Program-made: the position numbers and the translations under genes
Notes under the pieces: model-generated
What the model saw: the letters and a program-made list of their open reading frames with translations, nothing else
What the model was told of the DNA's origin: nothing
Database searches by the model: none
In this document: positions 2,223 to 53,968 of the stretch, in pieces
Numbering within the stretch: position 1 is the stretch's first letter
How the letters are laid out: every line of letters begins with the position of its first letter
Source of the DNA: Ruminococcus sp. FMBCY1
Lineage (GTDB): Bacteria > Bacillota > Clostridia > Oscillospirales > Acutalibacteraceae
Reading direction: 5' to 3'
DNA: 64,000 nt
Assembly: GCF_023921805.1 (NCBI RefSeq)
Contig: NZ_CP074197.1
Span: forward strand, 1,984,001 to 2,048,000

Positions 2223-2572
2223 CTTAATTTCAATTATTTACTCTTTGCGAGCATTGTGAAAAGCAATCCTTGCTTTTCTTCGTTATCACAAGGATAACAT
2301 ATTTTTGTCACAGTTGCAAGAGTTTTTTGAAAAAAGTTTAAAAAATTTATATCTGTTTTTAAAACATGGTGTTGCGTAAAATGAATAATTACAAAAAATT
2401 ACGGCAAATTTTTCAGTGAAAATCTGACTTGTTTCGCCGTAATCACATCAAAACAGCATAAATAATCGGTTGAATTTACAGTTTTGTAATTTATTAATGT
2501 TAAATTACTATTGCTATAAAAGCTTATAATGTGGTAGAATTGTATTAATATCTTTTAAAAGAGAAGGTTTTT
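2223..2572. promoter_or_regulatory. Divergent intergenic region between the ABC importer and the DUF624 gene
   Basis: A 350-bp AT-rich gap between divergent genes. It must hold promoters for both. For the plus-strand gene a TATAAT hexamer is visible at 2525-2530, about 45 bp before the start codon, but no good -35 at normal spacing. No riboswitch or clear operator palindrome was seen. Confidence 0.4.
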
Positions 2573-3451
2573 ATGAACAGTTTTTCAAATAGTGCTTTTG
2601 CACGGTTTTTTACTGAATTTCCCAGATTACTGCTTGCCCAACTTATCAATGCAGTTGCGTTTGCGGTATTTACGGCGTTGTTTGTTTTGATAGGTTACCT
2701 TACGGGTTTTAACAATATTATAGTATGGTGTCTGGGAATCATTCCGTCAATGCCGTTTTTTGCGGGACTTGTTATGACGGTGCGAAAAATAGGAATTGAA
2801 AAAAAGGATGTACCGGTTGCAAAAACATTTTTCGGTACAGTTAAAGAGAATTTTAAGGCGTTTTTATTGCACGGAGTTGTTACTTACGCAATTATAGCTT
2901 GTTCGATATTTGCGTTTATGTATTATTTTTCATTGCTCGGTTCAAGTCTTGCATACGGTTCAATGCTTACCGTATATGTTCTGTTTTCGCTTATTCTTAC
3001 ATCTATGATGTTTTATGTGCCGATAATGTCGGTTACGTATGAACTGAAAATATCAGATATTTATAAAAATTCTTTTATACTTGCTTTCGGTAATATCCTT
3101 AAAAATATTCTTGCAATGCTTTTCTTTATTGCTGTATCGCTTGGTTTTATATTATGGATTGCCGCAGCAGAGGGAGCAATGCTGGTGATTGCAATAACAG
3201 TTGCGGTTTTATTCTATCCCTTGATAGCAACTTATGGTGTGAATGTCATAATAGCGAAGGGATTACAGGAAAATGTTGGTTCTTTTACAGGTAAAGATTT
3301 ATTGGTTGATAAAGAATTTGAAGAAAAAGTAGAGAAAATAGTTGAACAGCAGGCTGTCGAAAGAGCAGACAGCAGTAATGATTATGTCTTTGTAAACGGA
3401 AAAATGATTAAGAGAGAATCAAATACTACAGACAGTAAAACAGAAAAATAA
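2573..3451 (+). CDS. DUF624 (YesL-like) integral membrane protein
   Basis: A 292-residue multi-pass membrane protein with about six hydrophobic segments (around residues 20-45, 50-68, 95-118, 125-150, 175-200 and 203-225) and a charged cytoplasmic tail. Layout and position beside a sugar ABC importer resemble the DUF624/YesL family, whose molecular role is unknown but which is often encoded with carbohydrate uptake systems. It is divergent from the importer and ends in an intrinsic terminator. Family assignment is by overall pattern rather than by a diagnostic motif. Confidence 0.6.
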   Translation: MNSFSNSAFARFFTEFPRLLLAQLINAVAFAVFTALFVLIGYLTGFNNIIVWCLGIIPSMPFFAGLVMTVRKIGIEKKDVPVAKTFFGTVKENFKAFLLHGVVTYAIIACSIFAFMYYFSLLGSSLAYGSMLTVYVLFSLILTSMMFYVPIMSVTYELKISDIYKNSFILAFGNILKNILAMLFFIAVSLGFILWIAAAEGAMLVIAITVAVLFYPLIATYGVNVIIAKGLQENVGSFTGKDLLVDKEFEEKVEKIVEQQAVERADSSNDYVFVNGKMIKRESNTTDSKTEK

Positions 3452-3500: not shown

Positions 3501-3626
3501 GCTTTTGTACTTTTTTTAAGTGGGAATATTATGGTTTAACATAGTATTACAAAAAATATAAGACTATAACAAAGTATTTTGCTAAACCTTATTTTAACTT
3601 CTTTACTCCGATATAAAAACGGAATA

Positions 3627-3660
3627 AAAAAGACACCTTCATTACTTGAAGATGTCTTTT
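3627..3660 (-). terminator. Intrinsic terminator of the transglutaminase-dockerin gene
   Basis: Stem AAAGACAcCTTCA / TGAAGaTGTCTTT with a 5-nt loop. On the minus strand it is followed by a long T run, 30 bp after the stop codon at 3690. It may work in both directions. Confidence 0.75.
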
Positions 3661-3689
3661 CGGAAAAATGGTATAAAATGAAAAAACTA

Positions 3690-5225
3690 CTAACTGTTTT
3701 TAGAAATATAAATTTGCAATGCGGTTGCATCATTAACATCAATTTGTCCGTCAGCGTTATAGTCCGCCGCAAGTTTTTGCGATTCTTTTGCATCAAGTGA
3801 ATTTGTGCAAATCATTTGTAAAAGAGTAACATCAAGAATTGAAAGATTGCCGTCCTCATTAATATCACCTAATAAAAATTTAGGAGGAATTAACAAATCA
3901 GTGTTTACTTTGCCAAAACCAATATCAAGTTTTTCCTGTTTGTTTTCAGGCAAAACATTAAGTTTAATAATATTTGCATCGTCAAACGGGGATTTTTTTA
4001 CATCTGCAAGAAAATTTCCGTCGTTATCAACTTTCATACCATAGATGTATACATAGTTTGAAGTATTGATTTTATTTGTAACTTGGGTTACCGTTCCGTT
4101 TGCAGTATTGTATTTGCATACAAAATTGTTAAGATTGAAATAGATATTGCCGTTGTATTCGTCTGTACTTACAAAACTGTCGTGCCAATAACTTAAACCG
4201 CCGTTAGTGTACCATTTATCGGAAATATCCGCTACAGGTTCTGCATAACCGGTTTCGGGATTGAAAGCAACAAGTTTTTTTGAGTTTTTACCGCTGTTGC
4301 TATTGTCTGCGGCATAAAAAAGATTATTTGAGTAACAGAATTTTGTGTTAAGATTTTTGTAATATGAGTTATCATAAGCGGTGTCGGTACAAGAATTGTT
4401 TGTTTTAAATCCGTAATGTACCGAAATATCCGACGATGTTTTAATTGCGCTGTCGCTCAACAGAAAATATTTGTGTGATACAAAACCGTATCTGTCGGGC
4501 GTAGGATCATCAAATGTAGCGTCAATATGATAATAATTTCCGCCAATTTCAGCGAGATTCCAAATATGATTCATTTGAGAGGATTCAACAATTTCGGAAT
4601 TAATACCTACTTTTTCAAGCAAATAAGACATTGAGCTTGTATAGCCCTGGCAATTTGCATATCCGTTTACAATACAATCATAAACGGAAGTACGGGTATA
4701 TTGTGCGTCAGGTGAATTTGAGTATTCACAGTTAAGTACAATTTCATCGTGAATTATTGCGGCTTTTTGAAAATCAGTCATATTCGGCTGAATTTTTGCA
4801 AGAATTTCATTTGTCTTGCTTTCAAGCTCGCTTCGCATTTGTACAATCTGTTCGTTTGAATATATATATGTAGGAATAACTCTTGCTACGCAAGAACCGA
4901 TTGCAAGACCGTAGGTTGTTTTGCTTACATAGAAAAGGTCGGGGCTTATTTCCGATACCGTGCGCATAGCTTTTTTTATATCATTTATAGATAATTGATA
5001 TTTTTCAACATCAATTTCGCTGTTCAAATTTTCCATACTGTCTATAAGGGTATTGCAAAGCTCGGAGTTTGAATTGTAAAAATCCTGATTATATGAAATA
5101 TAGTTTGGGTTGCCCACAGAGGAATCGTTCACAGAGGCTGATGCGGAGATTACAAACATAGGCGCAGTAATTGCAAGTGCTGAAAAAACAGATAACATTT
5201 TGTATAAGCGACTGTGTTTTTTCAT
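3690..5225 (-). CDS. Secreted transglutaminase-like protein with C-terminal type I dockerin
   Basis: A 511-residue exported protein. Residues 1-31 form a signal peptide. The middle carries a transglutaminase/protease core: Cys192 in ANCQGYTSSM, His220 in NHIWN and Asp235 in YYHIDATFDD have the order and spacing of the catalytic triad. The C-terminus (about 447-511) has two dockerin repeats, each starting with a calcium-binding D-x-N-x-D-G loop (GDINEDGNLS and ADYNADGQID). A type I dockerin docks on a cohesin of a scaffoldin, so this is a likely cellulosome or amylosome component, acting on protein or peptide cross-links rather than polysaccharide. The ATG at 5225 was chosen because AAAGGAGG lies 8-10 bases before it; an upstream in-frame start lacks this. 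It is monocistronic with its own terminator. Confidence 0.85.
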   Translation of the reverse strand: MKKHSRLYKMLSVFSALAITAPMFVISASASVNDSSVGNPNYISYNQDFYNSNSELCNTLIDSMENLNSEIDVEKYQLSINDIKKAMRTVSEISPDLFYVSKTTYGLAIGSCVARVIPTYIYSNEQIVQMRSELESKTNEILAKIQPNMTDFQKAAIIHDEIVLNCEYSNSPDAQYTRTSVYDCIVNGYANCQGYTSSMSYLLEKVGINSEIVESSQMNHIWNLAEIGGNYYHIDATFDDPTPDRYGFVSHKYFLLSDSAIKTSSDISVHYGFKTNNSCTDTAYDNSYYKNLNTKFCYSNNLFYAADNSNSGKNSKKLVAFNPETGYAEPVADISDKWYTNGGLSYWHDSFVSTDEYNGNIYFNLNNFVCKYNTANGTVTQVTNKINTSNYVYIYGMKVDNDGNFLADVKKSPFDDANIIKLNVLPENKQEKLDIGFGKVNTDLLIPPKFLLGDINEDGNLSILDVTLLQMICTNSLDAKESQKLAADYNADGQIDVNDATALQIYISKNS

Positions 5226-5929: not shown

Positions 5930-7135
5930 ATGAGAAAAATTCCGTTTTCGCCGCCTGATATTACACAGGCAGAAATTGACGAGGTTGTAAAGGTTTTAAA
6001 GTCGGGCTGGATTACTACAGGTCCCGAAACAAAACTTTTTGAAAGCCGTATTGCAGAATATTGCAATGTTGAGCGTGCGGCTTGCCTTTCTTCACAAACC
6101 TCTTGCGCAGAACTTACACTTCGTATTCTCGGTATCGGACCGGGCGACGAGGTAATTTTACCTGCATATACTTACACAGCTACAGCGTCTATAGTTTATC
6201 ATGTCGGTGCAAAGCCCGTTATGATTGACTGCAAAAGCGGTAGCTTTGAGATGGATTATGACAAAATGGAGGCTGCCATAAATCACAACACAAAGGCAAT
6301 CATTCCTGTTGACCTTGCGGGTGTTATCTGCGATTATGACAGAATTTTTGAGGCTGTTGAACGACAGAAAAGCGTGTTTAAGCCAAAGAATGAAATTCAG
6401 GAGAAATTCGGAAGAGTAATTGTTATGGCAGACGGCGCACATGCCTTTGGCGCAAGAAGAAAAGGCAAAATGTGCGGAGAAATTGCCGATTTTACAAACT
6501 TCAGTTTTCACGCAGTTAAAAATATGACTACTGCTGAGGGCGGTGCAGCCGTTCACCGTCCGCACGAATGGCTTGACGAGGACGACATATACAAGCAGTA
6601 TATGCTTTTGTCACTTCACGGTCAGACAAAGGACGCTTATCAGAAGAACAAGGTAGCGTCTTGGGAATATGATGTTGTGGATACTCAATATAAATGTAAT
6701 ATGCCGGATGTTCTTGCGGCACTCGGTGTGGTTCAGCTGCAAAGATACGAAAAAATCCTTGAACGCCGTCACGAGCTTATCCGTGTGTATAACGAGGAAT
6801 TTAAGGATTTGCCTATTCAGGTGCTTAACCATTGCGACGAAAATCACAGGAGCAGCGGTCATTTGTATTTTGTACGCTTTATCGGAAAAGATGACGAGTA
6901 TCGTAACAAGTTCTACAATATGATGGCGGAAAACGGTGTTATGTGCAATGTTCACTTTAAGCCGCTCCCAATGCTTTCCGCATACAAAAAGAGAGGCTTT
7001 AAGATTTCGGATTATCCGAATACCTATAATATGCATAAAAATCAGCTTACACTTCCGCTCAATACAACCATGTCGGACGATGACGCATGGTATGTTATTG
7101 AAACTTTTAAACAGTGTATTAATACTTTAAAGTAA
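5930..7135 (+). CDS. DegT/DnrJ/EryC1/StrS-family PLP aminotransferase
   Basis: A 401-residue sugar aminotransferase-like enzyme of the fold that makes amino sugars (nucleotide-linked 3- or 4-keto sugars) for cell-surface polysaccharides. The PLP lysine is in HAVKNMTTAEGG near residue 192; upstream is the DGAHAFGA motif, whose Asp binds the PLP pyridine nitrogen. N-terminal IPFSPPDI...EVVKVLKSGW is typical. The ATG at 5930 has AAGGAGAAG just before it; an in-frame ATG at 5891 has no ribosome site. No sugar-biosynthesis neighbours are present, so the substrate is unknown. A strong terminator follows. Confidence 0.9.
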   Translation: MRKIPFSPPDITQAEIDEVVKVLKSGWITTGPETKLFESRIAEYCNVERAACLSSQTSCAELTLRILGIGPGDEVILPAYTYTATASIVYHVGAKPVMIDCKSGSFEMDYDKMEAAINHNTKAIIPVDLAGVICDYDRIFEAVERQKSVFKPKNEIQEKFGRVIVMADGAHAFGARRKGKMCGEIADFTNFSFHAVKNMTTAEGGAAVHRPHEWLDEDDIYKQYMLLSLHGQTKDAYQKNKVASWEYDVVDTQYKCNMPDVLAALGVVQLQRYEKILERRHELIRVYNEEFKDLPIQVLNHCDENHRSSGHLYFVRFIGKDDEYRNKFYNMMAENGVMCNVHFKPLPMLSAYKKRGFKISDYPNTYNMHKNQLTLPLNTTMSDDDAWYVIETFKQCINTLK

Positions 7136-7158
7136 AATTTAATGTAATTTAATAAAAA

Positions 7159-7212
7159 CTTCCTTACAGACCGGTTAGGTTAAATTTATATCGGTTTGTA
7201 AGGGAATTTTTG
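7159..7212 (+). terminator. Intrinsic terminator after the DegT-family gene
   Basis: Long stem (CTTCCTTACAGACCG pairing with CGGTTTGTAAGGGAA, with G-U pairs) followed by TTTTT. Confidence 0.8.
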
Positions 7213-7218
7213 TTTTAA

Positions 7219-7485
7219 CATTTAATATATAATAATAAACTTATTGACAATGCCATTGTGGCTGTATCAATAACTTCAGACAGCACAAGCACATATTCAC
7301 TTGCAAAGCCGCAGGATATTCCAAAGGTGACTGTTACAAGCGAGCAGAGAAAGGCTTTGAAATACGCTATACTTAACGGTGAGTTTGCAAACGCAAAGCT
7401 TTTAACCGCAACAAAGAATAAGCTCAACCGGATTAACGGATATCTTGATCAGCTTACATTGCTCTATGATACAAATAGCTTTTGA
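7219..7485 (+). pseudogene. Short unrecognised reading frame, probably a gene remnant
   Basis: An open frame runs from just after the terminator at 7159-7212 to a stop at 7485. The only likely start is a GTG at 7258 (75 residues) with no good ribosome site. The frame stays protein-like upstream of it (INxxID...SITSDSTSTY) but has no start codon there, which looks like the C-terminal piece of a longer protein whose 5' part was lost. I do not recognise the family. It may also be a chance frame. Confidence 0.3.
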
Positions 7486-7505
7486 CTCTTTGGCGACAGA
7501 GAGCT

Positions 7506-7547
7506 AACCTGATTACAGCTTATCAGTTTGCTATTATTAATCAGGTT
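7506..7547. repeat. Perfect 10-bp inverted repeat
   Basis: AACCTGATTA at 7506-7515 and TAATCAGGTT at 7538-7547, 22 bp apart, with no T run after it. Hairpin or operator; function unknown. Confidence 0.5.
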
Positions 7548-7570
7548 GCAGAATAATTCCCATAAAATCA

Positions 7571-7597
7571 GCCTCCGCTTGATTGCGGAGGCTTTTT
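7571..7597 (+). terminator. Intrinsic terminator
   Basis: Perfect 8-bp stem GCCTCCGC / GCGGAGGC, 6-nt loop, then TTTTT. It lies after the 7219-7485 remnant. Confidence 0.85.
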
Positions 7598-7705
7598 GCT
7601 GTTAATCAGAGAAGAATTTAAGAGGAATAATTAAAAATTTAGACCAAAATTTTATAATTTTGGCATATAGCTTAGTGGTTGCCTGATTGTTACTTCGCTA
7701 AAACA

Positions 7706-8485
7706 TTATGATGTGGCATTTTGAGCAGGGAGCATTTTACCTTGTACATCGGTTGTGTAATTGCCTTTTAACAAAATTTGGCTTATCGGCACTATTTCGT
7801 ATCCCTGTGCTTTTATAGCCTCAATTACGATTGGCAGAGCTTCGGGTGTATTTGTTGCGCCGTTATGCATAAGTATAATACTGCCGTCTTTAAGTTTATT
7901 TGTTATGTTCAGGGTAATCTGATTTGGAGTAGGGTCTTTCCAATCAAGACTGTCAACATCCCACTGCACGCAGTACATATTATTAGCTTTTACCGTCTTT
8001 ACCACATCGTTGTTGTAGTCACCGTAAGGCGCACGGAACAGGGTAGGGCATTTGCCTGTCAATGCTTTGATTTTTTCGTTGCAAGTCTGAATCTGCATAT
8101 TCATATCATCAACCGACATCTGCGTCATATGCGGATGCGTATTGCTGTGATTGCCTACATCGTGACCACGCTTTGAAATCTCTTTTACAGACTCGGGATA
8201 TTTTTCTACCCAATCGCCGACAAGAAAAAATGTTGTTTTTACATTGTATTTATCAAGAATATCAAGTAAATGTTCGGTTTGTTCGTTGCCCCATGCGGCG
8301 TCAAAAGACAGCGCTACCTGCTTTTTATCTGTATCAACGCAGTAAATGGGGATTTCTCGCTGTGCGCTTGCGGTCTGAATTGCCTGTACGGTAGAAGTCA
8401 AAGCAATTCCGCCCGCAATTACACCAATCAGCAGACAAAATCCAATTGAAAATAAGGTTCGTTTTGTTATTATATAAAGACGCAT
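7706..8485 (-). CDS. pdaB: Polysaccharide deacetylase, PdaB-like (sporulation)
   Basis: A 259-residue NodB-homology deacetylase with one N-terminal membrane helix (about residues 10-32), so it is anchored with the enzyme outside. Catalytic motifs in order: SFDAAWG (the Asp of motif 1), HSNTHPHM (the two metal-binding His), RAPYGDYN (motif 3), D-V-D-S-L-D-W (motif 4) and LMHNG (motif 5). The AAWG form of motif 1 and the short length fit the PdaB group, needed for spore cortex maintenance, better than vegetative chitin deacetylases. Monocistronic. The subgroup name is an inference; the enzyme class is firm. Confidence 0.82.
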   Translation of the reverse strand: MRLYIITKRTLFSIGFCLLIGVIAGGIALTSTVQAIQTASAQREIPIYCVDTDKKQVALSFDAAWGNEQTEHLLDILDKYNVKTTFFLVGDWVEKYPESVKEISKRGHDVGNHSNTHPHMTQMSVDDMNMQIQTCNEKIKALTGKCPTLFRAPYGDYNNDVVKTVKANNMYCVQWDVDSLDWKDPTPNQITLNITNKLKDGSIILMHNGATNTPEALPIVIEAIKAQGYEIVPISQILLKGNYTTDVQGKMLPAQNATS

Positions 8486-8563
8486 AAAATCCCCTCCGTA
8501 TTGACTTTGCTTATGTCAAAGTATATGAAAGGGATTTTTATTTTATTCTATTCGGTTTTAAAA

Positions 8564-9961
8564 TCAGTTTTCAAAATGCCACTTAATGCCGTCTTTTGTA
8601 TCTTCCACAACAACTTTCATTTCTTTAAGTTTATCACGGATAGCGTCGGCAGTCGCCCAGTCTTTGTTTTTACGAGCCTCGGTACGCTGTGCAATAAGTA
8701 ACTCAACTTCTTCGTTTACAGGGTTTTCAGATTTATTCTCCTGTGCTTTTGTAAGGTCAAGAGAGAGAACCTTGTCAAATTCACCTATGAGATAAAGTTT
8801 AGTTGCATCGCTGATGTTGCCTTTTAATACGCTGTAAACGGCAGTAAGACCGAGTGAAGTGTTAAGGTCGTTGCCGAGAGCGTCATTAAATTCATTAAGA
8901 TAAGGCTTGGCAGCTTCCATATCAGGCTCTCCGTCAGGAGAAAGTGTAGAAATCTTCTTAATGAGTTTGTCATAAGCGATAGCCGCATTGTCAAGACTGT
9001 CATAAGAGAAAGTAAGCGGCTTGCGATAATGGCTCTGTAGGCAGAATAAACGGTAAACAAGAGGGTTATAACCTTTGCTTTCAAGTAAAGATACGGTAAG
9101 AAAATCACCCTTTGATTTACTCATTTTACCTCTTGCATCATTGAGGTGGAGTACATGGAACCAATACTTGCACCACTTATGACCGAGGTAAGCCTCGCTC
9201 TGTGCAATTTCATTGGTATGATGAGGAAATGCGTTGTCAATACCGCCGCAGTGAATGTCGAGATACTCGCCGTTGTGCTTACAGCTGATAGCTGAACATT
9301 CAATATGCCAGCCCGGATAACCGACGCCCCATGGGCTTTCCCACTTAAGCTCCTGTGAGTCAAATTTTGACTTGGTAAACCAGAGAACAAAGTCCGCTTT
9401 ATTACGCTTATTGTTGTCTTCTTCAACGCTGTCACGAACGCCGACAGCAAGGTCATCTTCGTTCATATTTCCGAAAACATAGTAATTATCAAGTTTTGAA
9501 GTATCAAAATATACATTGCCGCCTGCAATATAGGCATAGCCTTTTTCAAGCAGAACAGAAACCATATGAATAAACTCGTCAATGCAGTTTGTTGCAGGCT
9601 CTACAACATCAGGTCTTTTGATGTTGAGCTTTTTACAGTCCTCAAAAAATGCGTCAGTGTAAAACTTTGCGATTTCCATAACAGTCTTGTGCTCACGCTT
9701 TGCACCTTTGAGCATTTTGTCCTCGCCTGTATCCGCATCGCTTGAAAGGTGGCCGACATCGGTGATATTCATAACACGCTTAACATCATATCCCGCAAAA
9801 CGAAGGTACTTTTCAAGCACATCTTCCATAATATAAGTTCTAAGGTTGCCGATGTGGGCAAAGTGGTAAACAGTAGGGCCGCAGGTGTACATATTAACCT
9901 TGCCTGCTGTATGAGGTATAAATTCCTGTTTTGTCTGTCCCAATGAATTGTATAAAATCAT
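8564..9961 (-). CDS. cysS: Cysteinyl-tRNA synthetase
   Basis: Class I synthetase charging tRNA-Cys, 465 residues (normal length). Visible motifs: the zinc-site Cys in TCGPTVY (Cys27), the HIGH-like signature HFAHIGN near residues 34-40, the zinc-binding C-S/C-x-H region (HIECSAISC, HCGG), and the KMSKS loop KMSKSKGDF. It follows cysE by about 12 bp, the cysE-cysS pairing seen in many Firmicutes, where cysteine synthesis and tRNA charging are co-transcribed. Confidence 0.97.
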   Translation of the reverse strand: MILYNSLGQTKQEFIPHTAGKVNMYTCGPTVYHFAHIGNLRTYIMEDVLEKYLRFAGYDVKRVMNITDVGHLSSDADTGEDKMLKGAKREHKTVMEIAKFYTDAFFEDCKKLNIKRPDVVEPATNCIDEFIHMVSVLLEKGYAYIAGGNVYFDTSKLDNYYVFGNMNEDDLAVGVRDSVEEDNNKRNKADFVLWFTKSKFDSQELKWESPWGVGYPGWHIECSAISCKHNGEYLDIHCGGIDNAFPHHTNEIAQSEAYLGHKWCKYWFHVLHLNDARGKMSKSKGDFLTVSLLESKGYNPLVYRLFCLQSHYRKPLTFSYDSLDNAAIAYDKLIKKISTLSPDGEPDMEAAKPYLNEFNDALGNDLNTSLGLTAVYSVLKGNISDATKLYLIGEFDKVLSLDLTKAQENKSENPVNEEVELLIAQRTEARKNKDWATADAIRDKLKEMKVVVEDTKDGIKWHFEN

Positions 9962-9973
9962 TTTACTGCTCCT

Positions 9974-10624
9974 TTACTTTTTGCTTTCCTTTTCTGCCTT
10001 TAGAGCGTCAATTTCTTTTTGTAGATCTGTAATTTTTTGTTCCAGACTGCAAAGTGCAAGTGCGACAGGGTCTGAAACATGAATCTGGTCGAGAGTTTCG
10101 CTGCGTATTCCGTTGATTTTCACCACACGGGCAGGTACACCTACCGCTGTGGCATTCGGCGGAATTTCGCTCAATACTACCGCACCTGCGGCAATTCGTG
10201 CGTTATCTCCGACTTTAAACGGGCCGAGCACCTTTGCACCCGAACCTACAAGCACATTGTTGCCGAGTGTAGGGTGTCGTTTTCCCGTATCTTTACCTGT
10301 ACCGCCGAGGGTTACATTCTGATAAATTGTGCAGTTGTCGCCGATGATAGTTGTTTCACCGATAACTACGCCCATACCATGGTCAATAAATAATCCCTTG
10401 CCTATGGTAGCTCCCGGGTGTATTTCTATTCCTGTTTTATGCCTGCTGCGCTGTGAAATCCAGCGGGCAATAAACTTCATATTGTGCCTTAAAAACCAAT
10501 TAGCCTTACGGTGAGAGCGCACAGCCTTAAAACCCGAGTATAAAAAGAATACTTCGGCTCGGTTTCTTGCGGCAGGGTCACGCTCCATAACGGCGTCAAG
10601 GTCGGCCTTTAGTGTTTTAAACAA
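9974..10624 (-). CDS. cysE: Serine O-acetyltransferase
   Basis: Acetylates L-serine with acetyl-CoA, the first step of cysteine synthesis. The C-terminal half is a left-handed beta-helix of hexapeptide repeats (IHPGATIGKGLFIDHG, VVIGETTIIGDNCTIYQ, VTLGGTGKD), with the His/Asp pair of the active site in FIDHGMG. The TTG at 10624 was chosen: it gives about 216 residues beginning MFKTLKADLDAV as in the family, has GGATGTGA before it, and avoids overlap with pgsA. A longer in-frame extension to 10741 runs into pgsA and does not look like CysE. The C-terminus ends in a coiled coil (about the last 25 residues). Confidence 0.93.
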   Translation of the reverse strand: MFKTLKADLDAVMERDPAARNRAEVFFLYSGFKAVRSHRKANWFLRHNMKFIARWISQRSRHKTGIEIHPGATIGKGLFIDHGMGVVIGETTIIGDNCTIYQNVTLGGTGKDTGKRHPTLGNNVLVGSGAKVLGPFKVGDNARIAAGAVVLSEIPPNATAVGVPARVVKINGIRSETLDQIHVSDPVALALCSLEQKITDLQKEIDALKAEKESKK

Positions 10625-10653
10625 AGTATCACATCCGATGTGGTGTTGATTTT

Positions 10654-11244
10654 TTACATATCTGCTATAAACTGCTTGTTCTGAACAATATAAATTACGC
10701 CCGAAACAAGAGCCATAATTGTTGAAATCCAAATAAGGCAAAGTGAAACTACTGTAAATATGCCTTGGAGATACAAAATTGTATCAACGGAAAATGCAGA
10801 TTTTACGGTAAATAATTCAATTAAAAACTGCATTAACAGTATGGCAATAATAGCTACAAGCTGGGTTACGGTTTTGATTTTGCCGAAAATATTTGCGGCA
10901 ACGACTTTGCCTTTTGAAGCGGCAACAAGGCGGATAGAAGTTACTGAAAATTCTCTGAAAAGTACGATAATAACTGCGATGCAGTCGCACCAACCTGTTT
11001 GCACAAAGCAAAGCAATGCGCTTAATACAAGAATTTTGTCTGCAAGCGGGTCTGCAAACTTGCCGAAATCGGTTACAAGTCCTCTGCTTCTTGCGATTTT
11101 ACCGTCAAACATATCTGTAAAAGTTGCCACAACAAAAATTACAAGGGCAACTGCTGTGTGAAAAGGAAAATTTATTAACAAGGATGCCACGAAGAACGGC
11201 ACAAGTATTATTCTGCTTAAAGTAAGTTTGTTCGGTAAATTCAT
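10654..11244 (-). CDS. pgsA: CDP-diacylglycerol-glycerol-3-phosphate 3-phosphatidyltransferase
   Basis: Makes phosphatidylglycerol phosphate, the committed step of phosphatidylglycerol synthesis, in the membrane. About 196 residues with four to five membrane helices. The CDP-alcohol phosphotransferase signature D-G-x2-A-R-x8-G-x3-D-x3-D is complete in FDGKIARSRGLVTDFGKFAD. The start MNLPNKLTLSRI at 11244 is the standard N-terminus and has GGAGATCAGAGGG upstream. It sits between rimO and cysE in one minus-strand run. Confidence 0.95.
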   Translation of the reverse strand: MNLPNKLTLSRIILVPFFVASLLINFPFHTAVALVIFVVATFTDMFDGKIARSRGLVTDFGKFADPLADKILVLSALLCFVQTGWCDCIAVIIVLFREFSVTSIRLVAASKGKVVAANIFGKIKTVTQLVAIIAILLMQFLIELFTVKSAFSVDTILYLQGIFTVVSLCLIWISTIMALVSGVIYIVQNKQFIADM

Positions 11245-11311
11245 AATTGCCCTCTGATCTCCTTTTGACACCATTATATTATATGCCGATGTCGGTTATA
11301 TGTAAATAAAA

Positions 11312-12658
11312 TTATTCTGCCAATTCGCCGATTGGGTCACAATCCGTATAATCTGTAATCTTAACCTTTACAAAACTGCCGGGCTGTGGTTTGGTGCCGC
11401 TTGCGGTAAAGAATACACATCCGTCAATTTCAGGTGCGTCGGCATAGGTTCTGCCGTAGAAACATTCCGCAATTCTGTCATAACCTTCTACAAGCACCTC
11501 AATTTCTTTGCCGATGAGGCTTTCGCAGTATTCTGCCATAACGCTCTGCTGATGTTCCATAATAATATCGGCTCTGTGCTGTTTGATTTCATCGTCAACC
11601 TGGTCGGGAAAACTTGCCGCAGGTGTGCCTTCTTCTGCCGAGTAGGCAAAGCAACCCAGGCGCTGGAATTTAATTTCAGCGGCAAACTCCGCAAGTTCCT
11701 CAAACTGTTCGTCGGTTTCGCCCGGGAAACCTGTAATAAATGTTGAACGAAGAATCATATCGGGTACTTTTGCTCTTAACTTGTTAAGTAATGCGGTAAG
11801 ACTTTCACGATTGCCGTGTCTGTTCATTCTCTTTAAAATGTTGCCGTCGCAATGCTGGAGCGGTAAATCTATGTAATTAACAAGTTTTTCTTCCTCTGCA
11901 AAGGTGTCGATAAGTTCATCTGTAAGTCTGTCCGGATAGCAATAAAGCACTCTTATCCATTTTAATCCGTCAATTTTACAGAGCCTTTTTAAAAGTTTTG
12001 CAAGGTAAGGTTCACCGAAAAGGTCTTCACCGTAGCGTGTTGTATCTTGAGCAATAACAATAATCTCTTTTACGCCGTCTTTGGCAAGCTGTTCTGCTTC
12101 TTCAACAACCGCATCGGGTTGGCGGCTTCTGAATTTACCTCTAATCATAGGAATTGCGCAGTATGTACAACGGTTGTCGCAGCCCTCCGCAATTTTGAGA
12201 TAAGCGGTGTAGGGAGGAGTTGACTGTATTCTTCTGCCCTCAAGACATAAAAGCTGTTTGTCGGGGAATTCCTCGATTTTTTCTTTATGTTCTGTATTAT
12301 CCGAAAGCAACTCGGCTACAACATCCGCAATTTGAGAGTTAGCGCCGATTCCGAGTGCTGCGTCAACTTCGTAAAGCTGACGGGTGATTTCGTTTTTATA
12401 GCGCTCTGCAAGACAACCGGTTACAATAATGGCTTTGATTTTGCCCTCTTGCTTTAGCTTGCCAAGTTCTATAATTTCGTTAATGCTTTCCTGTTTTGCC
12501 GATTCAATAAATCCGCAGGTGTTTACAATAACCGCATCTGCGTCTGCGGGGTCGTTTACTAATTCAAAGCCCTTGCTTTTTAATGTAAAAAGCAGCATTT
12601 CAGCGTCAACCTGATTTTTAGGGCAACCGAGTGATACAATACCAACTTTAGAACTCAT
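11312..12658 (-). CDS. rimO: Ribosomal protein S12 methylthiotransferase RimO
   Basis: Radical-SAM enzyme that methylthiolates an Asp of ribosomal protein S12. Three parts are visible: an N-terminal MTTase domain with cysteines for one iron-sulfur cluster (SLGCPKNQVD, NTCGFI, TGCLAERY), the radical-SAM C-x3-C-x2-C motif CDNRCTYC, and a C-terminal TRAM RNA-binding domain. The SLGCPKN start separates RimO from MiaB. The ATG at 12658 has GAGGA upstream and overlaps the recX stop by about 11 bp, so the two are translationally linked. Confidence 0.96.
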   Translation of the reverse strand: MSSKVGIVSLGCPKNQVDAEMLLFTLKSKGFELVNDPADADAVIVNTCGFIESAKQESINEIIELGKLKQEGKIKAIIVTGCLAERYKNEITRQLYEVDAALGIGANSQIADVVAELLSDNTEHKEKIEEFPDKQLLCLEGRRIQSTPPYTAYLKIAEGCDNRCTYCAIPMIRGKFRSRQPDAVVEEAEQLAKDGVKEIIVIAQDTTRYGEDLFGEPYLAKLLKRLCKIDGLKWIRVLYCYPDRLTDELIDTFAEEEKLVNYIDLPLQHCDGNILKRMNRHGNRESLTALLNKLRAKVPDMILRSTFITGFPGETDEQFEELAEFAAEIKFQRLGCFAYSAEEGTPAASFPDQVDDEIKQHRADIIMEHQQSVMAEYCESLIGKEIEVLVEGYDRIAECFYGRTYADAPEIDGCVFFTASGTKPQPGSFVKVKITDYTDCDPIGELAE

Positions 12659-44373: not shown

Positions 44374-44380
44374 AGCCGAA

Positions 44381-44436
44381 ACCGCCGCAAGGCGGTCAGC
44401 AGGAAATGACCTCCCTGCTCTGATGATGGCAGGTCA
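44381..44436 (+). ncRNA. Structured leader of the transposase gene
   Basis: ACCGCC-GCAA-GGCGGT (44381-44396) is a perfect hairpin with a GNRA-type tetraloop. It is followed by AGCAGG/CCTGCT (44398-44403 with 44414-44419), whose loop contains TGACCT (44407-44412) complementary to AGGTCA (44431-44436): a possible pseudoknot or switch ending just before the ribosome site of the TTG-started transposase gene. Control of transposase translation is an inference. Confidence 0.4.
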
Positions 44437-44451
44437 AAAGGATGTGATTTT

Positions 44452-48711: not shown

Positions 48712-48966
48712 ATGGAAACATCAAAAAAGATTTGCAAAAACGGCTCAATTACTTTGCCAAAGCAGATAAGAGCCGAAGCAGGCATGTTCCCCGGCAACGC
48801 TGTTAATATTAGCACCTCGGCTGACGGAACGGTAACAATTAAGCCGTCAGCTCCCTGTTGTCGCTTTTGTGGAACAGTTGAAAATGTAATCGTTGCTGAC
48901 AATGTTGTTATTTGCCGCAAATGTGCTGAAAAATTACTTGCAAAGGTGGATGTAACAAATGACTGA
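48712..48966 (+). CDS. AbrB/SpoVT-domain protein fused to a zinc ribbon
   Basis: An 84-residue protein. Residues 1-45 are a SpoVT/AbrB swapped-hairpin domain (KICKNGSITLPKQIRAEAGM, then AVNISTSADGTVTIKP); residues 49-78 add a zinc ribbon (CCRFCGTVE...VICRKCAEK). The AbrB part binds DNA as a dimer; the zinc part is unusual for this class. A transition-state-like phage regulator is possible. Confidence 0.8.
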   Translation: METSKKICKNGSITLPKQIRAEAGMFPGNAVNISTSADGTVTIKPSAPCCRFCGTVENVIVADNVVICRKCAEKLLAKVDVTND

Positions 48967-49607: not shown

Positions 49608-50117
49608 TTGTTAAAACCACAGCAAACACAACGAATATACGCTATCGGTGCAAGGCTTGGACTTGTTGAAAGCGGTAATAAAAATGACTTACTGCACGAA
49701 CTTGTGTATAGCATAGCACAAAAAAGCAGCGTCCGAGAGCTCGACGAACAGGAATATAAAAAAGTTGTTGCAGAACTTGTGAACAAGCTTAGAATCGCTA
49801 ATCTTACAGAACCTAAAACGGTACATCCTTTCAAAGCAAAAAAGCGTGAAGATAAAGGTATTGGTAAGATGTCAGACGGTCAGACACGCAAGGTATGGCA
49901 GCTTATGTATAGCCTTGAAAAACTTGATAAAAAGCCGTCAAGTGCAAAACTTGGTGACCGCTTATGTGGTATAATTAAAAAAGAATTGCATATTGATGCT
50001 TTACCGAAAGACCCCTTTGCGTGGCTTACATATCAGCAGGGAGTTAAACTGATTGAAATACTAAAAAAATACATTGCAAATGCTCAAAGGAGGAAGGACG
50101 GTGGAAATACATCTTGA
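49608..50117 (+). CDS. GemA/gp16-like phage protein
   Basis: A 169-residue protein that begins LLKPQQTQRIYAIGARLGL and continues GIGKMSDGQTRKVWQLMYSL, the DUF1018/gp16 (GemA) pattern of Mu-like phages; in Mu this gene directly precedes mor, exactly as here. The GemA family is thought to alter host DNA supercoiling or gene expression. A TTG at 49608 after GAGGTGATT is preferred to a GTG at 49599. Confidence 0.85.
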   Translation: MLKPQQTQRIYAIGARLGLVESGNKNDLLHELVYSIAQKSSVRELDEQEYKKVVAELVNKLRIANLTEPKTVHPFKAKKREDKGIGKMSDGQTRKVWQLMYSLEKLDKKPSSAKLGDRLCGIIKKELHIDALPKDPFAWLTYQQGVKLIEILKKYIANAQRRKDGGNTS

Positions 50118-50388
50118 TGATCTCATAGGCACTCAGCGTGATATAGCTGAGGTAATAGGTATTGAAAGTTATGTAAAACTTTGCAAGATTTTCGGTGGTG
50201 ATACAGTGTATATACAAAAATACAGTGAACTGCAGAAAATAGAAAGAAATGCGGAAATCAAAGCTAAATACAACGGCTATAACAGTCGTTTGCTTGCAAA
50301 AGAATATGATCTGTCTGAACGATATGTAAGAACAATATGTTCACAAAACAGCCTTGATGGTCAGTTAAGTATTTTTGATGATATTTAG
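50101..50388 (+). CDS. Mor-like transcription activator
   Basis: A 95-residue protein: EIHLDDLIGTQRDIAEVIG at the start, then YVKLCKIFGGDTVYIQKYSE and a C-terminal helix-turn-helix (GYNSRLLAKEYDLSERYVRTI). This is the Mor/C family, which binds as a dimer upstream of middle or late promoters. The GTG at 50101 is taken because AAAGGAGG precedes it. It is followed by a strong terminator and then the late genes, so a Mor-dependent promoter is expected in 50389-50500. Confidence 0.9.
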   Translation: MEIHLDDLIGTQRDIAEVIGIESYVKLCKIFGGDTVYIQKYSELQKIERNAEIKAKYNGYNSRLLAKEYDLSERYVRTICSQNSLDGQLSIFDDI

Positions 50389-50499
50389 TGGCTTGAGAAA
50401 AATATAGGATATTCGTCCTCTACAGACATATAGAATTATAAGGTATTATTGAGTTAGAAACTTGATAATACCTTATTTTTATGGAGTTGAAAAGAAAAT
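50389..50499 (+). promoter_or_regulatory. Putative late promoter region
   Basis: 110 bp between the Mor-like gene and the first late gene. Contains ATATAGAATTATAA (possible -10) and the terminator at 50439-50480. No consensus -35, as expected for an activator-dependent promoter. Confidence 0.4.
50439..50480 (+). terminator. Intrinsic terminator between the Mor-like gene and late genes
   Basis: Perfect 11-bp stem TAAGGTATTAT / ATAATACCTTA, 15-nt loop, then TTTTT. It ends the early operon. Confidence 0.88.
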
Positions 50500-51171: not shown

Positions 51172-51729
51172 ATGGGCAGAAACAACCGCAGGGCTTGCGG
51201 AAAGATTGATAAACTTCCTGCTGATCTCAAGGACACAGTAGACCAAATGCTTGTTAGTGGTCAGACATACAGAGAAATCGTATCATATCTCTCTGAAAAC
51301 GGAGAGCAGCTGTCGCAGGCGGCAGTCAGTCGTTATGCATCAAGATTTTTAGCAAACGCACAGCAGTTGAGAATAGCACAAGAAAATTTCCGAATGATAC
51401 TCACCGAAACCGAGCGTTATCCTGAACTTGATCCGGCAGAGGCTATTTTAAGAATGGCATCACAAAAAGTGTTTGATGCAATTGCAAAACTTGATGAAGG
51501 TCAGTTTGATGATGTGTCAGCTGATGACCTTTTAAGGCAGGCAACAGCACTTGCAAGAGCAGTTGCTTACAAACGCAAAACAGACATTGATGTCAAGTCA
51601 GACAAGCAGATTGCACTTGAGGAAAATCAGAGCTTGCTTTATGAAACTATCAAGAAAAGTAACCCACGCTTGTATAACGAGCTTATGGATGAAATTAATA
51701 AGCTCAAAAAGCAGGCAAAGGAGGCTTAG
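51172..51729 (+). CDS. DUF3486 protein (Mu gp27-like, small terminase-type)
   Basis: A 185-residue protein: GKIDKLPADLKDTVDQML, YREIVSYLSENGEQLSQAAVSRY, KSNPRLYNELMDEINKL. This is the Mu gp27/DUF3486 pattern, considered the small terminase or packaging recognition protein. It has an N-terminal helix-turn-helix for packaging-site binding. Note another terminase-like small gene at 52396, so the phage may have two candidate small subunits. Confidence 0.82.
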   Translation: MGRNNRRACGKIDKLPADLKDTVDQMLVSGQTYREIVSYLSENGEQLSQAAVSRYASRFLANAQQLRIAQENFRMILTETERYPELDPAEAILRMASQKVFDAIAKLDEGQFDDVSADDLLRQATALARAVAYKRKTDIDVKSDKQIALEENQSLLYETIKKSNPRLYNELMDEINKLKKQAKEA

Positions 51730-51730
51730 T

Positions 51731-52252
51731 ATGGAAAAATACGAATGGTATGTACTTCATGTCAGAACAGACAGTGAGCTTGATGTTGCAAATGCTTTAG
51801 AAAAGCGAGGCTTTTCAACGGCTGTACCTGTTGAAAATCGTATTATTCGCAAGAGCGGAAAATGGATTAAGAAAGCATACATTGTTTTTGCAGGCTATGT
51901 TTTTGTGTTTATGCGATACAACTGGGCAAAATACTACGCTATGAATAACATCAGCGGAATAATTAAAATTCTTGGCGGCGGTCAGAATCCTGTTCCGTTA
52001 AGCGAGAGTGAATCAGAGTTTGTTCTTAGACTATCGGATTTGCTCTCTGAACCGTCAGTTTTAAAATTTAATGACGACAACAGTTATAAAGTTGTCAGCG
52101 GATTTTTAACAGATTATGCAGATAAAATTGTAAAAATTGAACGCAGATACAAGAAAGCAACAGTCAAGGTTACTGTTGCCGGAGAAGAAAAAGAAATAAA
52201 AGTATCTTTTATAGAAGATACAGAACAAATGCCGGAGCAGACAGCGGATTGA
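51731..52252 (+). CDS. NusG-family transcription elongation factor (LoaP-like antiterminator candidate)
   Basis: A 173-residue NusG paralogue. N-terminal NGN domain: EWYVLHVRTDSELDVANAL, VPVENRIIRKSGKWIKKAY and FAGYVFVFMRYNW (the aromatic core that contacts RNA polymerase). C-terminal KOW-type segment: GFLTDYADKIVKIERRYKKA followed by TVKVTVAGEEKEIKVSF. It is not the host nusG: no secE or L11 neighbours, and it is embedded in the late phage operon (1 bp after gp27-like). A structured RNA and an intrinsic terminator lie straight after it. In LoaP systems such a protein modifies polymerase at a leader RNA to read through terminators. Confidence 0.88.
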   Translation: MEKYEWYVLHVRTDSELDVANALEKRGFSTAVPVENRIIRKSGKWIKKAYIVFAGYVFVFMRYNWAKYYAMNNISGIIKILGGGQNPVPLSESESEFVLRLSDLLSEPSVLKFNDDNSYKVVSGFLTDYADKIVKIERRYKKATVKVTVAGEEKEIKVSFIEDTEQMPEQTAD

Positions 52253-52257
52253 TTCGT

Positions 52258-52322
52258 CTTCGCTTGATGAATGGTTGTTATACACTTAGCACCGATAACA
52301 TCAAAGTTAGCGGATGGCGAAG
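52258..52322 (+). ncRNA. Structured RNA between the NusG-like gene and the late terminator
   Basis: An outer stem CTTCGC (52258-52263) / GCGAAG (52317-52322) closes over an inner region with TTGATG (52264-52269) / CATCAA (52299-52304) and TGTTAT (52276-52281) / ATAACA (52295-52300); the two inner pairings share bases, so they are alternatives or stack partly. Location just before a terminator suggests a recognition leader for the NusG paralogue. Confidence 0.55.
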
Positions 52323-52330
52323 CTTGCATA

Positions 52331-52344
52331 AAACGGTATTTAAA
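52331..52344 (+). repeat. AAACGGTATTTAAA element, copy 1
   Basis: A 14-mer repeated exactly at 57374-57387. Both copies stand just before an intrinsic terminator. See also AAAACGGCTTTAAA at 42272-42285. Confidence 0.6.
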
Positions 52345-52352
52345 CTTATTTT

Positions 52353-52380
52353 AAGCACCCTTTAATGGGTGTTTTTATTT
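52353..52380 (+). terminator. Intrinsic terminator upstream of the terminase genes
   Basis: Stem AAGCACCC / GGGTGTTT with a TTTAAT loop, followed by a T-rich tract. It would stop late transcription unless the polymerase is made resistant, since the head genes follow without another obvious promoter. Confidence 0.85.
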
Positions 52381-52395
52381 TGGAGGTGAGTGCGA

Positions 52396-52731
52396 ATGGA
52401 TAAGCTGTCAAAACTTGAACAATTACTTAAAGATACAAATACAAAGCAGGAATTTAATATTGTGGAGGACTTAAAGGCTTTAGCTCTCTCCTATGGAGTA
52501 GTCAAGTCAAAGGATTTCCGCAAAAAGCTCAACGCCCTGATTGAAAAATACGAAAATGACGAACTGACGGCAATTCGTGAGGCACTCGTTAAGAAGTGCC
52601 AAAGCGGAGATGTTCAGGCTATTAGGCTCTATGCAGACTATTTCAAGCCTGAAACAGTTGCAACCGTTGATGACGGATTGATTGAGGCACTTGCAGGTGC
52701 AGGCAAGGAGGCTTTCGCTGATGAAATTTAA
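52396..52731 (+). CDS. Terminase small subunit-like protein
   Basis: A 111-residue helical protein (KLEQLLKDTNTKQEFNIVED, ALVKKCQSGDVQAIRLYADY). Directly upstream of, and overlapping (11 bp), the large terminase subunit gene, which is the usual place of the small subunit; the QSGDVQAIRLYADYF segment resembles ones in Firmicutes phage small terminases. The ATG at 52396 is favoured: GGAGGTGAG lies at proper distance, while a GTG at 52390 would be too close. Confidence 0.7.
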   Translation: MDKLSKLEQLLKDTNTKQEFNIVEDLKALALSYGVVKSKDFRKKLNALIEKYENDELTAIREALVKKCQSGDVQAIRLYADYFKPETVATVDDGLIEALAGAGKEAFADEI

Positions 52732-53968
52732 ACCTTTTTCCAAAAAGCAATTAAAAGTCCTCTCTTGGTGGAAGGTTGATGGAATTAAGGATAAATACGA
52801 TGCAATAATTGCAGACGGTTCAGTCCGTTCCGGCAAGACGGTAAGTATGAGCATATCTTTTATCTTTTGGGCAATGACAACATTTGTTGACTGCAACTTT
52901 GCCATATGCGGTAAAACCGTAGGCTCTTGCAGACGAAATGTTATTAAGCCACTTATTAATATGCTTAACAACCGTTATGACATCAAAGACAAGCGGTCGG
53001 AAAACTTGCTGATAATCAGCAAAGACGGCAAATCAAACACATTTTACATTTTCGGCGGTAAAGATGAAAGCTCGCAGGATTTAATTCAGGGCATTACGCT
53101 TGCAGGCGTTCTCTTCGATGAGGTTGCTCTGATGCCGAGGTCATTTGTTGAGCAGGCTCTTGCCCGGTGCTCTATTGAGGGTGCAAGGTCTTGGTTTAAC
53201 TGCAATCCCGATAACCCCAACCATTGGTTCTATCGTGAGTGGGTTTTAAAGGCTCCTGAAAAGCACGCTTTGCGGCTTAAATTCTTAATGGACGATAACC
53301 TTAGTCTTTCTGAAAAGGTTAAGCAACGGTATTACAGCCTTTATCAAGGCACATTTTACCGCCGCTTTATCCTTGGTGAGTGGGTTATTGCCGAAGGTCT
53401 TGTGTATCAGGATTACAATGACCATATTAAGGATAAGTTGTGGGACGGCAATCCGGATGAGCTTGTCGGACGGTGGTACATATCAATGGACTACGGTACT
53501 ATTAACCCTTGCTCTATGGGACTGTGGTGCGTAACTGACAACGAGGCTATTAGAGTGGATGAATACTACTACAACAGTCGCAAGGAAGGCTATCAACGCA
53601 CCGATGAAGAGCATTATGCAGAGCTTGATAAGCTCGCAGGTGACCGCTATATAGAGCGTGTGATAATTGACCCGTCCGCCGCATCATTTAAAGCTACAAT
53701 CAAAAAGCATGGCAAGTTTTTTGTTAAGTCGGCGAAAAATGATGTTATAAACGGCATCCGAACCACGAGCCAAATGCTCAATGACGGCAGAATTAAAATC
53801 GGCGTTAAGTGCAAGGCATCACAAGAGGAGTTTGGAATGTACCGCTGGGACGATAAAGCCGAGGTTGACAAAGTAGTTAAGGAAAATGACCACGCAATGG
53901 ACGATATACGCTATTTAGCTTATACAGTCTTAAAGCGTGAGTTTAAATACAAGGAGGTGAGCAGTTGA
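52721..53968 (+). CDS. Terminase large subunit, PBSX type
   Basis: A 415-residue DNA-packaging motor. Walker A GSVRSGKT near residue 33, Walker B VLFDEVAL near residue 144, and a C-terminal nuclease part with SMDYGTINPCSMGLWC and VIIDPSAASF (RuvC-like acidic residues), then HAMDDIRYL at the end. Cuts and packages DNA into the prohead. The ATG at 52721 follows AGGAGG; an in-frame start at 52682 is upstream of the previous stop. Mu itself uses a different large terminase, so this is a mosaic. Confidence 0.93.
   Translation: MKFKPFSKKQLKVLSWWKVDGIKDKYDAIIADGSVRSGKTVSMSISFIFWAMTTFVDCNFAICGKTVGSCRRNVIKPLINMLNNRYDIKDKRSENLLIISKDGKSNTFYIFGGKDESSQDLIQGITLAGVLFDEVALMPRSFVEQALARCSIEGARSWFNCNPDNPNHWFYREWVLKAPEKHALRLKFLMDDNLSLSEKVKQRYYSLYQGTFYRRFILGEWVIAEGLVYQDYNDHIKDKLWDGNPDELVGRWYISMDYGTINPCSMGLWCVTDNEAIRVDEYYYNSRKEGYQRTDEEHYAELDKLAGDRYIERVIIDPSAASFKATIKKHGKFFVKSAKNDVINGIRTTSQMLNDGRIKIGVKCKASQEEFGMYRWDDKAEVDKVVKENDHAMDDIRYLAYTVLKREFKYKEVSS

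Follow-up and report, generated by a model that had tools for sequence, protein, structure and literature searches.

In Mu-type phages of Clostridia, most of them from the gut, a conserved signal behind a phage nusG gene probably allows RNA polymerase to continue into the genes for the virus particle. The signal was found in a 64,000-nucleotide stretch of the genome of Ruminococcus sp. FMBCY1, here called the window, where the gene for a NusG paralogue is followed by an RNA element of the RAGATH-28 family, an intrinsic terminator and the genes for packaging and head formation. In our judgement it is likely, from the comparison of related elements, that the head genes are governed by processive antitermination in cis, combining a LoaP-type capture of the protein by RNA with an ops-like pause and acting on top of Mor.

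The element present in the window is a transposable phage of the Mu type, with a transposase and a transposition protein (phrog_310 and phrog_296), GemA, Mor, gp27 and the corresponding head families. On the plus strand, positions 50074-50388 encode a Mor-family late transcription activator (Pfam Mor, 4.7e-12; phrog_836, late transcriptional activator), and a Mu gp27-like gene at 51172-51729 (PF11985, 2.3e-19; plus strand) abuts the 5' side of nusG. The latter occupies positions 51731-52252 of the same strand and encodes a 173 aa NusG paralogue predicted to be an antiterminator (Pfam NusG, 2.8e-17; phrog_6386, 'transcription antiterminator', 4.5e-29). The first gene behind the terminator, also on the plus strand, is small terminase-like (52396-52731; phrog_24579, 1.1e-9 when scanned from the GTG at 52390), its ATG start being preceded by GGAGGTGA, and it is followed by the large terminase gene (52682-53968, plus strand; phrog_2, 9.2e-49). 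According to the phrog profiles, the gene order 3' of the terminator is small and large terminase, portal, minor head, scaffold and major head.

This arrangement recurs. The Mu gp27 family was found 5' of nusG in at least 55 of 62 related elements, a lower bound because the ORF picked upstream was not always the nearest gene (the window's element included). Among 96 downstream ORFs, which are the first two per element with spurious ORFs counted too, the commonest families were the large terminases phrog_38 (21) and phrog_2 (17), the portal phrog_64 (15) and the small terminase phrog_24579 (13). The order gp27-nusG-RNA-terminase is common to diverse elements. A preliminary description of this DNA had placed the module ahead of the phage head genes, which holds for the terminase, portal and head genes found downstream; the gp27 homologue lies upstream, so not all head genes are covered. 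The same description had proposed a NusG-type switch instead of one working only through Mor/C, the activation by which the late programme of Mu-like phages is otherwise described. The phage does have a Mor activator, so the NusG step would act on top of Mor. That an ordinary Mor switch alone runs late control, with nusG as a cargo gene of unrelated function, seems to us hardly credible: the Mor-family gene is indeed there, but the nusG-RNA pair stays beside gp27 and terminase across very divergent elements, as cargo would not.

The protein belongs to the NusG superfamily, and so the NGN/KOW-type NusG paralogue seen in the preliminary description is borne out by both profile (Pfam, 2.8e-17) and fold. 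The NGN domain in ORF 51731-52252 scored 63.4 bits against a Pfam gathering threshold of 22.2, and the AlphaFold2 model (mean pLDDT 91.2) is confident and folds into two parts, of which the C-terminal one is mostly beta. The model matched NusG structures by fold, and RfaH-ops complexes were also matched. The closest solved structure was 8f5g, a 'NusG-RNA complex' (5.2e-12 by sequence; fold E 1.1e-11, TM 0.71), which we take to be LoaP with its RNA. Alignment of the homologues disclosed that R40, G43 and W45 of the paralogue are nearly invariant, and R40 aligns opposite the R of an E-R pair in 8f5g. An account of Bacillus velezensis LoaP names the pair E40/R41 for RNA binding (PMC12691694), and we infer that the E-R pair of 8f5g facing R40 would be this E40/R41.

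Assignment to a known family within the superfamily was less direct. The phage paralogue failed the housekeeping NusG equivalog TIGR00922 (55 vs 135.7 bits), and the whole genome holds two NusG-domain places in all, the second gene scoring better than the phage paralogue. Profile comparison, while placing the protein in the NusG superfamily, left it short of the cut-offs for RfaH and LoaP alike. It lay far below the cut-off of the RfaH equivalog (24 vs 144.5 bits), and the helical-hairpin C-terminal domain of RfaH is absent from the AlphaFold2 model, which has beta strands and one short helix (125-132) and in which a fold switch would not show. On the LoaP model NF033641 it reached 103.1 bits, below the curated cut-off of 125, and identification as LoaP was rejected. 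A score of 103 bits on this model says little, because other NusG proteins reach 114: this was the top value among the places ranked next below the LoaPs in an NF033641 search of 398 genomes of the phylum. From these sub-LoaP places 19 were fetched, and 16 form one separate tree group (100/100 support), presumed to be housekeeping NusG. In the tree, which comprises 72 rows and leaves out L029 and L056 with their truncated nusG, a branch supported at 83/87 sets 37 of the 43 RAGATH-28-linked proteins apart; the remaining six are on the LoaP/NusG side, and LoaP appears in two places. The phage NusG family is thus weakly resolved from LoaP. L095, a protein known solely from the NusG-like hits of the search across the phylum, clusters in the tree with the RAGATH-28 proteins, and an RNA match of 28.8 bits lies behind its gene. 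The RAGATH-28-linked proteins go down to 26% identity with the NusG of the window, hence the pairing of protein and RNA is old.

The RNA is RAGATH-28 (RF03052), which spans positions 52243-52323 of the plus strand and overlaps the nusG stop codon in the window. It scores 58.2 bits with the Rfam model, and as the gathering threshold is 45.3 bits the match is more than chance. Rfam files RAGATH-28 as an sRNA gene, and it has been an orphan motif. The comparison in both directions shows the nusG gene and RAGATH-28 to be near-obligate partners. Starting from the RNA, 398 genomes of the family gave 14 RAGATH-28 matches, nine of them above the Rfam cut-off, and a NusG-like ORF lies directly 5' on the same strand at all 14. 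The element is uncommon, being confined to 12 of these 398 genomes. A DNA pattern derived from the two most conserved stretches, run on viral and species-genome collections, retrieved 66 loci, element copies included. A NusG-like ORF is upstream in 42 of them, ending anywhere from 17 bases inside the motif to 261 bases before it, and 24 have none. The Rfam model exceeded its own cut-off at 38 of 41 scanned NusG loci (L025, L038 and L050 fell below) versus 0 of the 24 NusG-less loci; the unscanned 42nd NusG locus, L015, has an RNA identical to that of L025.

Starting from the protein, searches with two protein alignments gave 53 loci, distributed over 40 viral contigs. Of these loci, 48 have exactly one match (E up to 0.05) to a covariance model built in this analysis (R1), invariably on the strand of nusG and close to the 3' end of the gene. 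The conserved RNA fold for which the preliminary description had proposed a covariance search is present beside nusG, with covariation in its first hairpin. On 37 of the 40 phage contigs found by protein alone the RNA adjoins nusG, while the other three contigs end inside nusG; 29 of the 37 were new relative to the pattern scan, and they contain 22 distinct RNA sequences. Chance pattern hits reach 30.9 bits, a range that includes L113, L115 and L165, which count mainly by position; the two lowest matches, at 19.9 and 22.2 bits, count by position only. These weakest RNAs are also off pattern, L113 (19.9 bits) being without the UNCG loop and L115 (22.2 bits) and L165 (26.3 bits) having an extra base behind it. 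Among human-gut phage records with a related NusG the RNA was detected in L164 (35.4 bits), L165 (26.3 bits) and L166 (58.7 bits), and the covariance scan returned no RAGATH-28 match in L168; these are four of eight 'Bacteriophage sp.' records. A single-protein scan of the viral contigs with the NusG of the window gave no matches. The counts do not represent independent events, because the members are related and the locus sets overlap (the contigs of L045 and L049, for instance, are those of L002 and L005). In the whole genome of the host there is one RAGATH-28 (59.5 bits with R1), the next match having 13.6 bits; with one such RNA and one extra NusG gene in this genome, the target is local.

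Three parts of the element were distinguished, followed by a tail. The first, P1 (52243-52264, plus strand), is a hairpin overlapping the nusG stop codon and composed of the stem 52243-52248/52259-52264, a UU bulge at 52249-52250, GA/UC pairs and a UUCG tetraloop at 52253-52256. Across 42 sequences, 84.7% of its cells are paired vs 62.8% in shuffled alignments, and its covariation score of 0.544 compares with 0.164 after shuffling and 0.06-0.165 when the stem was slid. Seven of nine pairs changed on both sides, a count on which the shuffles reach 5.9. The loop is UNCG, its N being U, G or A, and L164 has G-C in place of the closing A-U. The 42-row alignment leaves out the near-copies L040 and L080, and the other set used, of 44 unique RNAs, was gathered by regular expression, with L004 falling outside. 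P1 is followed by a middle segment (52265-52291, plus strand) with a conserved A-T-A core, which serves many relatives as the 5' arm of a long-range helix resembling a terminator. The second hairpin, P2 (52292-52313, plus strand), was deduced by folding of the homologues (mean z -2.67; z < -1.5 in 37 of 44) and ends 12 nt ahead of the predicted pause; this distance is close to the spacing of hairpin-assisted pauses. A closing stem, 52258-52263/52317-52322, had been drawn in the preliminary description. It pairs in the window, and across 42 homologues it is paired at 42.9% vs 43.1% for shuffled sequences, with no covariation, and was rejected. Hence the structured RNA described behind nusG exists, as RAGATH-28, and the fold drawn for it is not conserved.

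The tail (52314-52326, plus strand) reads ATGGCGAAGC-T-T-G in the window. It contains a putative mini-hairpin of the non-template DNA strand, in which G52317 C52318 would face G52322 C52323 around a GAA loop, and the predicted pause, in the -1/+1 numbering of ops, has T52325 at -1 and G52326 at +1. Most of 64 distinct tails (L080, which shares its tail with L073, was counted once) consist of ATGGCGAAGC and then N-Y-R, often with CCC; the CCC found behind Y-R in most relatives is missing from the tail of the window, and the extended pattern GGCGAAGCNYRCCC had no match anywhere in the window. A Y-R step occurs at +2/+3 in 49 of the 64 tails, and in 63 if the position one base further is also accepted, as compared with 16 to 34 of 64 when the same either-or test was applied at control offsets. 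The G-C/G-C stem is kept in 62 tails. The loops are GAA (47), GGA (4), GTA (2), GCA (2), GAAA (1), AAC (3), AGC (2) and AAA (1), with none in two tails, such that 56 of the 64 fit a GNA/GNNA rule and eight depart from it. DNA mini-hairpins with GNA/GNNA loops on at least two G-C pairs are described as extraordinarily stable, GCGAAGC melting at 78 degrees (PMC4686876); generic DNA energy parameters gave no stable fold for GGCGAAGC. The RfaH-recruiting site ops12 is given as GGCGGTAGCGTG (PMC5995543). Aligned from the 3' side, ops G8 C9 G10 T11 | G12 falls over G C N Y | R of the tail; ops12 has GC-GGTA-GC and ends T|G, and the phage tail has GC-GNA-GC and ends Y|R at an equal distance from the stem. 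The tail, with GC-GNA-GC and then N-Y-R, thus resembles ops and may form a pause together with a DNA hairpin.

Alternatively, GGCGAAGC could act as RNA, its GGCGAA pairing with UUCGUC of the P1 loop in a pseudoknot, and neither a DNA hairpin nor a pause would be involved. Across the alignment 96% of cells do pair, and in the close relatives L095 and L154 the loop UGCGUC faces GGCGCA with pairing kept. Both sides, however, are nearly invariant and covariation is at the shuffle level (453 of 500 shuffles were as high), while most loop and tail variants break the pairing: it is kept in two of 12 RNAs with a non-U at the N of UNCG, and is lost with the tails GGCAAC and GGCGTA and with GGCGCA facing a UUCG loop. 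Loop N and tail N vary independently, as expected of UNCG and GNA loops. We rejected this pairing, and a pseudoknot in place of the ops-like pause is very improbable.

The intrinsic terminator that the preliminary description had seen ahead of terminase was recovered by an independent scan, as a terminator-like hairpin (52353-52374) with a U tract, together spanning 52353-52380 of the plus strand. From the U tract to the start codon of the small terminase gene there are 15 bases in the window. Local intrinsic terminators within 150 bases behind the element were present in 27 of 64 members, the window included, vs 4.2 (sd 2.0) for letter shuffles. In the 44 RNAs, moreover, the middle segment between P1 and P2 pairs better with its own downstream DNA (mean duplex -22.8 kcal/mol) than with that of another member (-18.0 kcal/mol swapped; 0 of 10000 permutations). 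Ahead of U-rich stretches, nine of 64 members have a strong long-range helix vs 0.8 by swapping under the stricter score; under a laxer one there are 19 vs 7.4, a smaller excess. Such helices account for some of the members in which no local terminator was found. Local terminators and long-range helices both being in excess, an early stop behind the element is common and of varied construction, and was detected in part of the members. A consensus scan listed no plus-strand sigma-70-like site at 51287-53639, weak evidence because it found 27 sites in total where shuffles gave 27.4.

The preference of the middle segment for its own downstream DNA and the excess of strong long-range helices would also suit an attenuator with mutually exclusive folds, in which the paralogue or the departing ribosome picks P2 against the long-range terminator, locally and without processivity. 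By inspection, the long helix overlaps a P2 arm in L003, L032, L073 and L077; in L006, L009 and L013, on the other hand, P2 fits within the loop of the long helix. The local terminator of 27 members, the window among them, is clear of the RNA in nearly all, and a purely local switch would need no NusG factor bound to polymerase. We regard the attenuator as decidedly unlikely.

A further explanation is autoregulation alone, RAGATH-28 being a 3' UTR element bound by NusG for the stability or termination of its own mRNA, with the head genes unaffected. It draws on the RNA overlapping or closely trailing the nusG stop codon in many members, on the frequent terminators behind the element, on its single copy in the genome, and on the first downstream ORF of the relatives, often more than 100 bases behind the element, which leaves room for a separate promoter. 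Yet terminase and portal genes recur behind the element, and in the window the U tract nearly reaches the start codon. In addition, loaP, taA and upxY are described as adjoining their target operons (PMC7819879), and the tail resembles a polymerase pause more than an mRNA stability element. Autoregulation as the sole function is therefore unlikely.

Under the favoured reading, antitermination of the head genes in cis, events would proceed as follows. Transcription, with a start probably assisted by Mor, would pass through gp27 and nusG. P1, the UNCG hairpin of the nascent transcript, would then capture the NusG paralogue, as the dfn hairpin does with LoaP, a step proposed because gene and RNA are near-obligate partners and LoaP offers a precedent. 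P2 and the GGCGAAGC-N-Y-R tail would halt the polymerase, and the non-template strand would show the GC-GNA-GC mini-hairpin, as ops does for RfaH; this step is proposed because the tail is conserved. The paralogue, kept close by P1, could then load on the polymerase, which would pass the terminator, perhaps also later ones, into the terminase, portal and head genes. With the factor absent, transcription would end after nusG. The broader claim of the preliminary description, that a NusG paralogue and a leader RNA gate a terminator before the packaging genes, is supported by comparison as regards the link, the terminators and the gene order; the RNA fold drawn, the kinship with LoaP, whose cut-off the protein does not reach, and the part of Mor, which is present as well, are the three points corrected.

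The nearest known system is LoaP with its dfn/mln leader in B. velezensis (PMC12691694), where a NusG paralogue of a Gram-positive host likewise serves a succession of UNCG-type hairpin, pause (predicted in the phage) and intrinsic terminator. In that account the hairpin of the leader is essential and the polymerase pauses roughly midway to a NusA-dependent terminator; removal of the pause moderately lowers antitermination, and LoaP acts against NusA (PMC12691694). A UNCG hairpin in the transcript before the terminator is provided in the phage by P1, as deduced from covariation and loop variation. The phage paralogue differs in scoring below the LoaP cut-off and standing outside the LoaP rows of the tree, with weak support; it precedes a head operon whereas LoaP serves a biosynthetic one, and, unlike with LoaP, its gene lies just upstream of its own target RNA. 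P1, in contrast to the dfn hairpin, belongs to a larger conserved element that also includes a second hairpin and a nearly invariant tail. Beside genuine LoaP genes (11 loci, L081-L091) a strict search for UNCG hairpins gave one candidate, at the far end of L081. By eye, L088 has behind loaP a UUCG hairpin, a GGTCATAG middle and a GGGCGAAGC-TATACC tail, and L091 has a GGTGGCGAAGCTTACCC tail ahead of loaP; both tails are leads, since the bare GGCGAAGC is expected about once by chance there.

RfaH and ops of Escherichia coli (PMC5995543, PMC6370827) share with the phage module, as described there, the recruitment of a paralogue at a pause, which in the phage is predicted. They differ in that the phage module has an upstream RNA hairpin and ops none, and in that the phage C-terminal domain is predicted to be mostly beta, not a helical hairpin. 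With N/nut and Q of lambda the proposed system has in common a phage factor and a cis site by which polymerase passes terminators into later genes; these proteins are unrelated to the phage NusG paralogue. An annotated NusG gene is also present in the rhizobial phages phi3LM21 and PPF1; that of phi3LM21 follows the replication genes and stands a short way ahead of terminase. Their hosts are other than those of the RAGATH-28 phages, and a covariance scan found no RAGATH-28 match in either.

Annotated phage NusG genes (phrog_6386; rhizobial phages) and RAGATH-28 in Rfam were thus already known. A full-text literature search, with the original RAGATH description outside its reach, found no link between RAGATH-28 and NusG, and the mutual dependence of the two is new by this measure, as are the interpretation of P1 as a UNCG hairpin and of the tail as ops-like, and the location of the module in the head operon of Mu-like phages. 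The same kind of search found no papers on NusG antitermination together with terminase and late genes.

A more far-reaching and tentative proposal, to which we give somewhat under an even chance, is that RAGATH-28 is a two-part loading site uniting both modes of NusG-paralogue recruitment, after which polymerase would be terminator-proof across the head operons of a broad group of Clostridia Mu-like phages. Ops would fall in the same GNA/GNNA class, and the two modes may share an origin, as the LoaP-proper locus L088 shows a seemingly divergent form of RAGATH-28. Should the tail prove to be a pause of the ops kind, the RNA-based and the DNA-based way of recruiting NusG paralogues would be halves of one device. 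According to the account of LoaP cited above, the role of its RNA-protein complex needs more work, and the downstream pause is speculated to give time for association (PMC12691694); how a LoaP-like factor loads on polymerase after binding RNA becomes a testable question in the phage module, whose parts span about 650 bases and make the system portable and directly testable.

The conserved module may serve as a marker for transposable phages in Clostridia and possibly as a compact tool for the expression of long operons. An orphan structured RNA, RAGATH-28, would gain a likely job and a wide group of phage NusG paralogues a cis partner, and a NusG-type antitermination step would enter the late programme of Mu-like phages.

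The nusG stop codon of the window, a TGA, lies inside the conserved UUGA of P1 (52249-52252), the UNCG-tetraloop hairpin that forms the first part of the RAGATH-28 RNA, and the same arrangement occurs in several relatives. This overlap probably reflects compactness, since in other relatives nusG ends up to 261 bases away. By eye, a box ACAAACGC was recognized a few to about 20 bases 5' of P1 at eight comparison loci that are relatives of the window's element (L002, L005, L006, L008, L011, L013, L066 and L072), its counterpart in the window being ACAAATGC.

Upstream of nusG, a terminator-like hairpin of 18 pairs is found on the + strand at 50438-50476, shortly 3' of the Mor gene, and this position suggests that a Mor-driven unit begins behind the hairpin. 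A MazE-like antitoxin is encoded at 48712-48966 (+; phrog_4681, 1.3e-12), and no family match was found for the 212-residue ORF that follows it. A type II hammerhead ribozyme (44374-44438, +; 43.9 bits, cut-off 37) adjoins on the 5' side the Mu-type transposase ORF starting at 44452. Hammerheads of the same type occur at other loci: the 26 kb phage contig L036 carries six within the single stretch 7063-12525 (-), oriented like the nusG gene and RAGATH-28 element of that contig, and L027 carries two (2234-3255, +). The Gemmiger record L069 also has two (4453-5082, -), with equal scores, and probably represents the same phage as L036.

In Sinorhizobium phage phi3LM21 (L167, region 3519-4000) the annotated NusG lies between the replication genes and the terminase. 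The sequence GCGAAAGCTATGACC, found 3' of this gene by a small inspection without control, is possibly another ops-like site.

Sequences resembling parts of RAGATH-28 were also seen near loaP and NusG-like genes. Tail-like GGTGGCGAAGCTTACCC lies 5' of the loaP gene of L091 (-; about 1453 in reverse coordinates), and a hairpin and tail-like AATGGCGAAGCCAACCC precede a NusG-like start in L098 (1085-1139, +). The region 3' of LoaP proper (185 bits) in L088 (1960-2200) displays a UUCG hairpin, GGTCATAG, a hairpin and then GGGCGAAGC-TATACC; it may represent a divergent form of RAGATH-28, scoring just 12.8 bits with R1, the covariance model built here.
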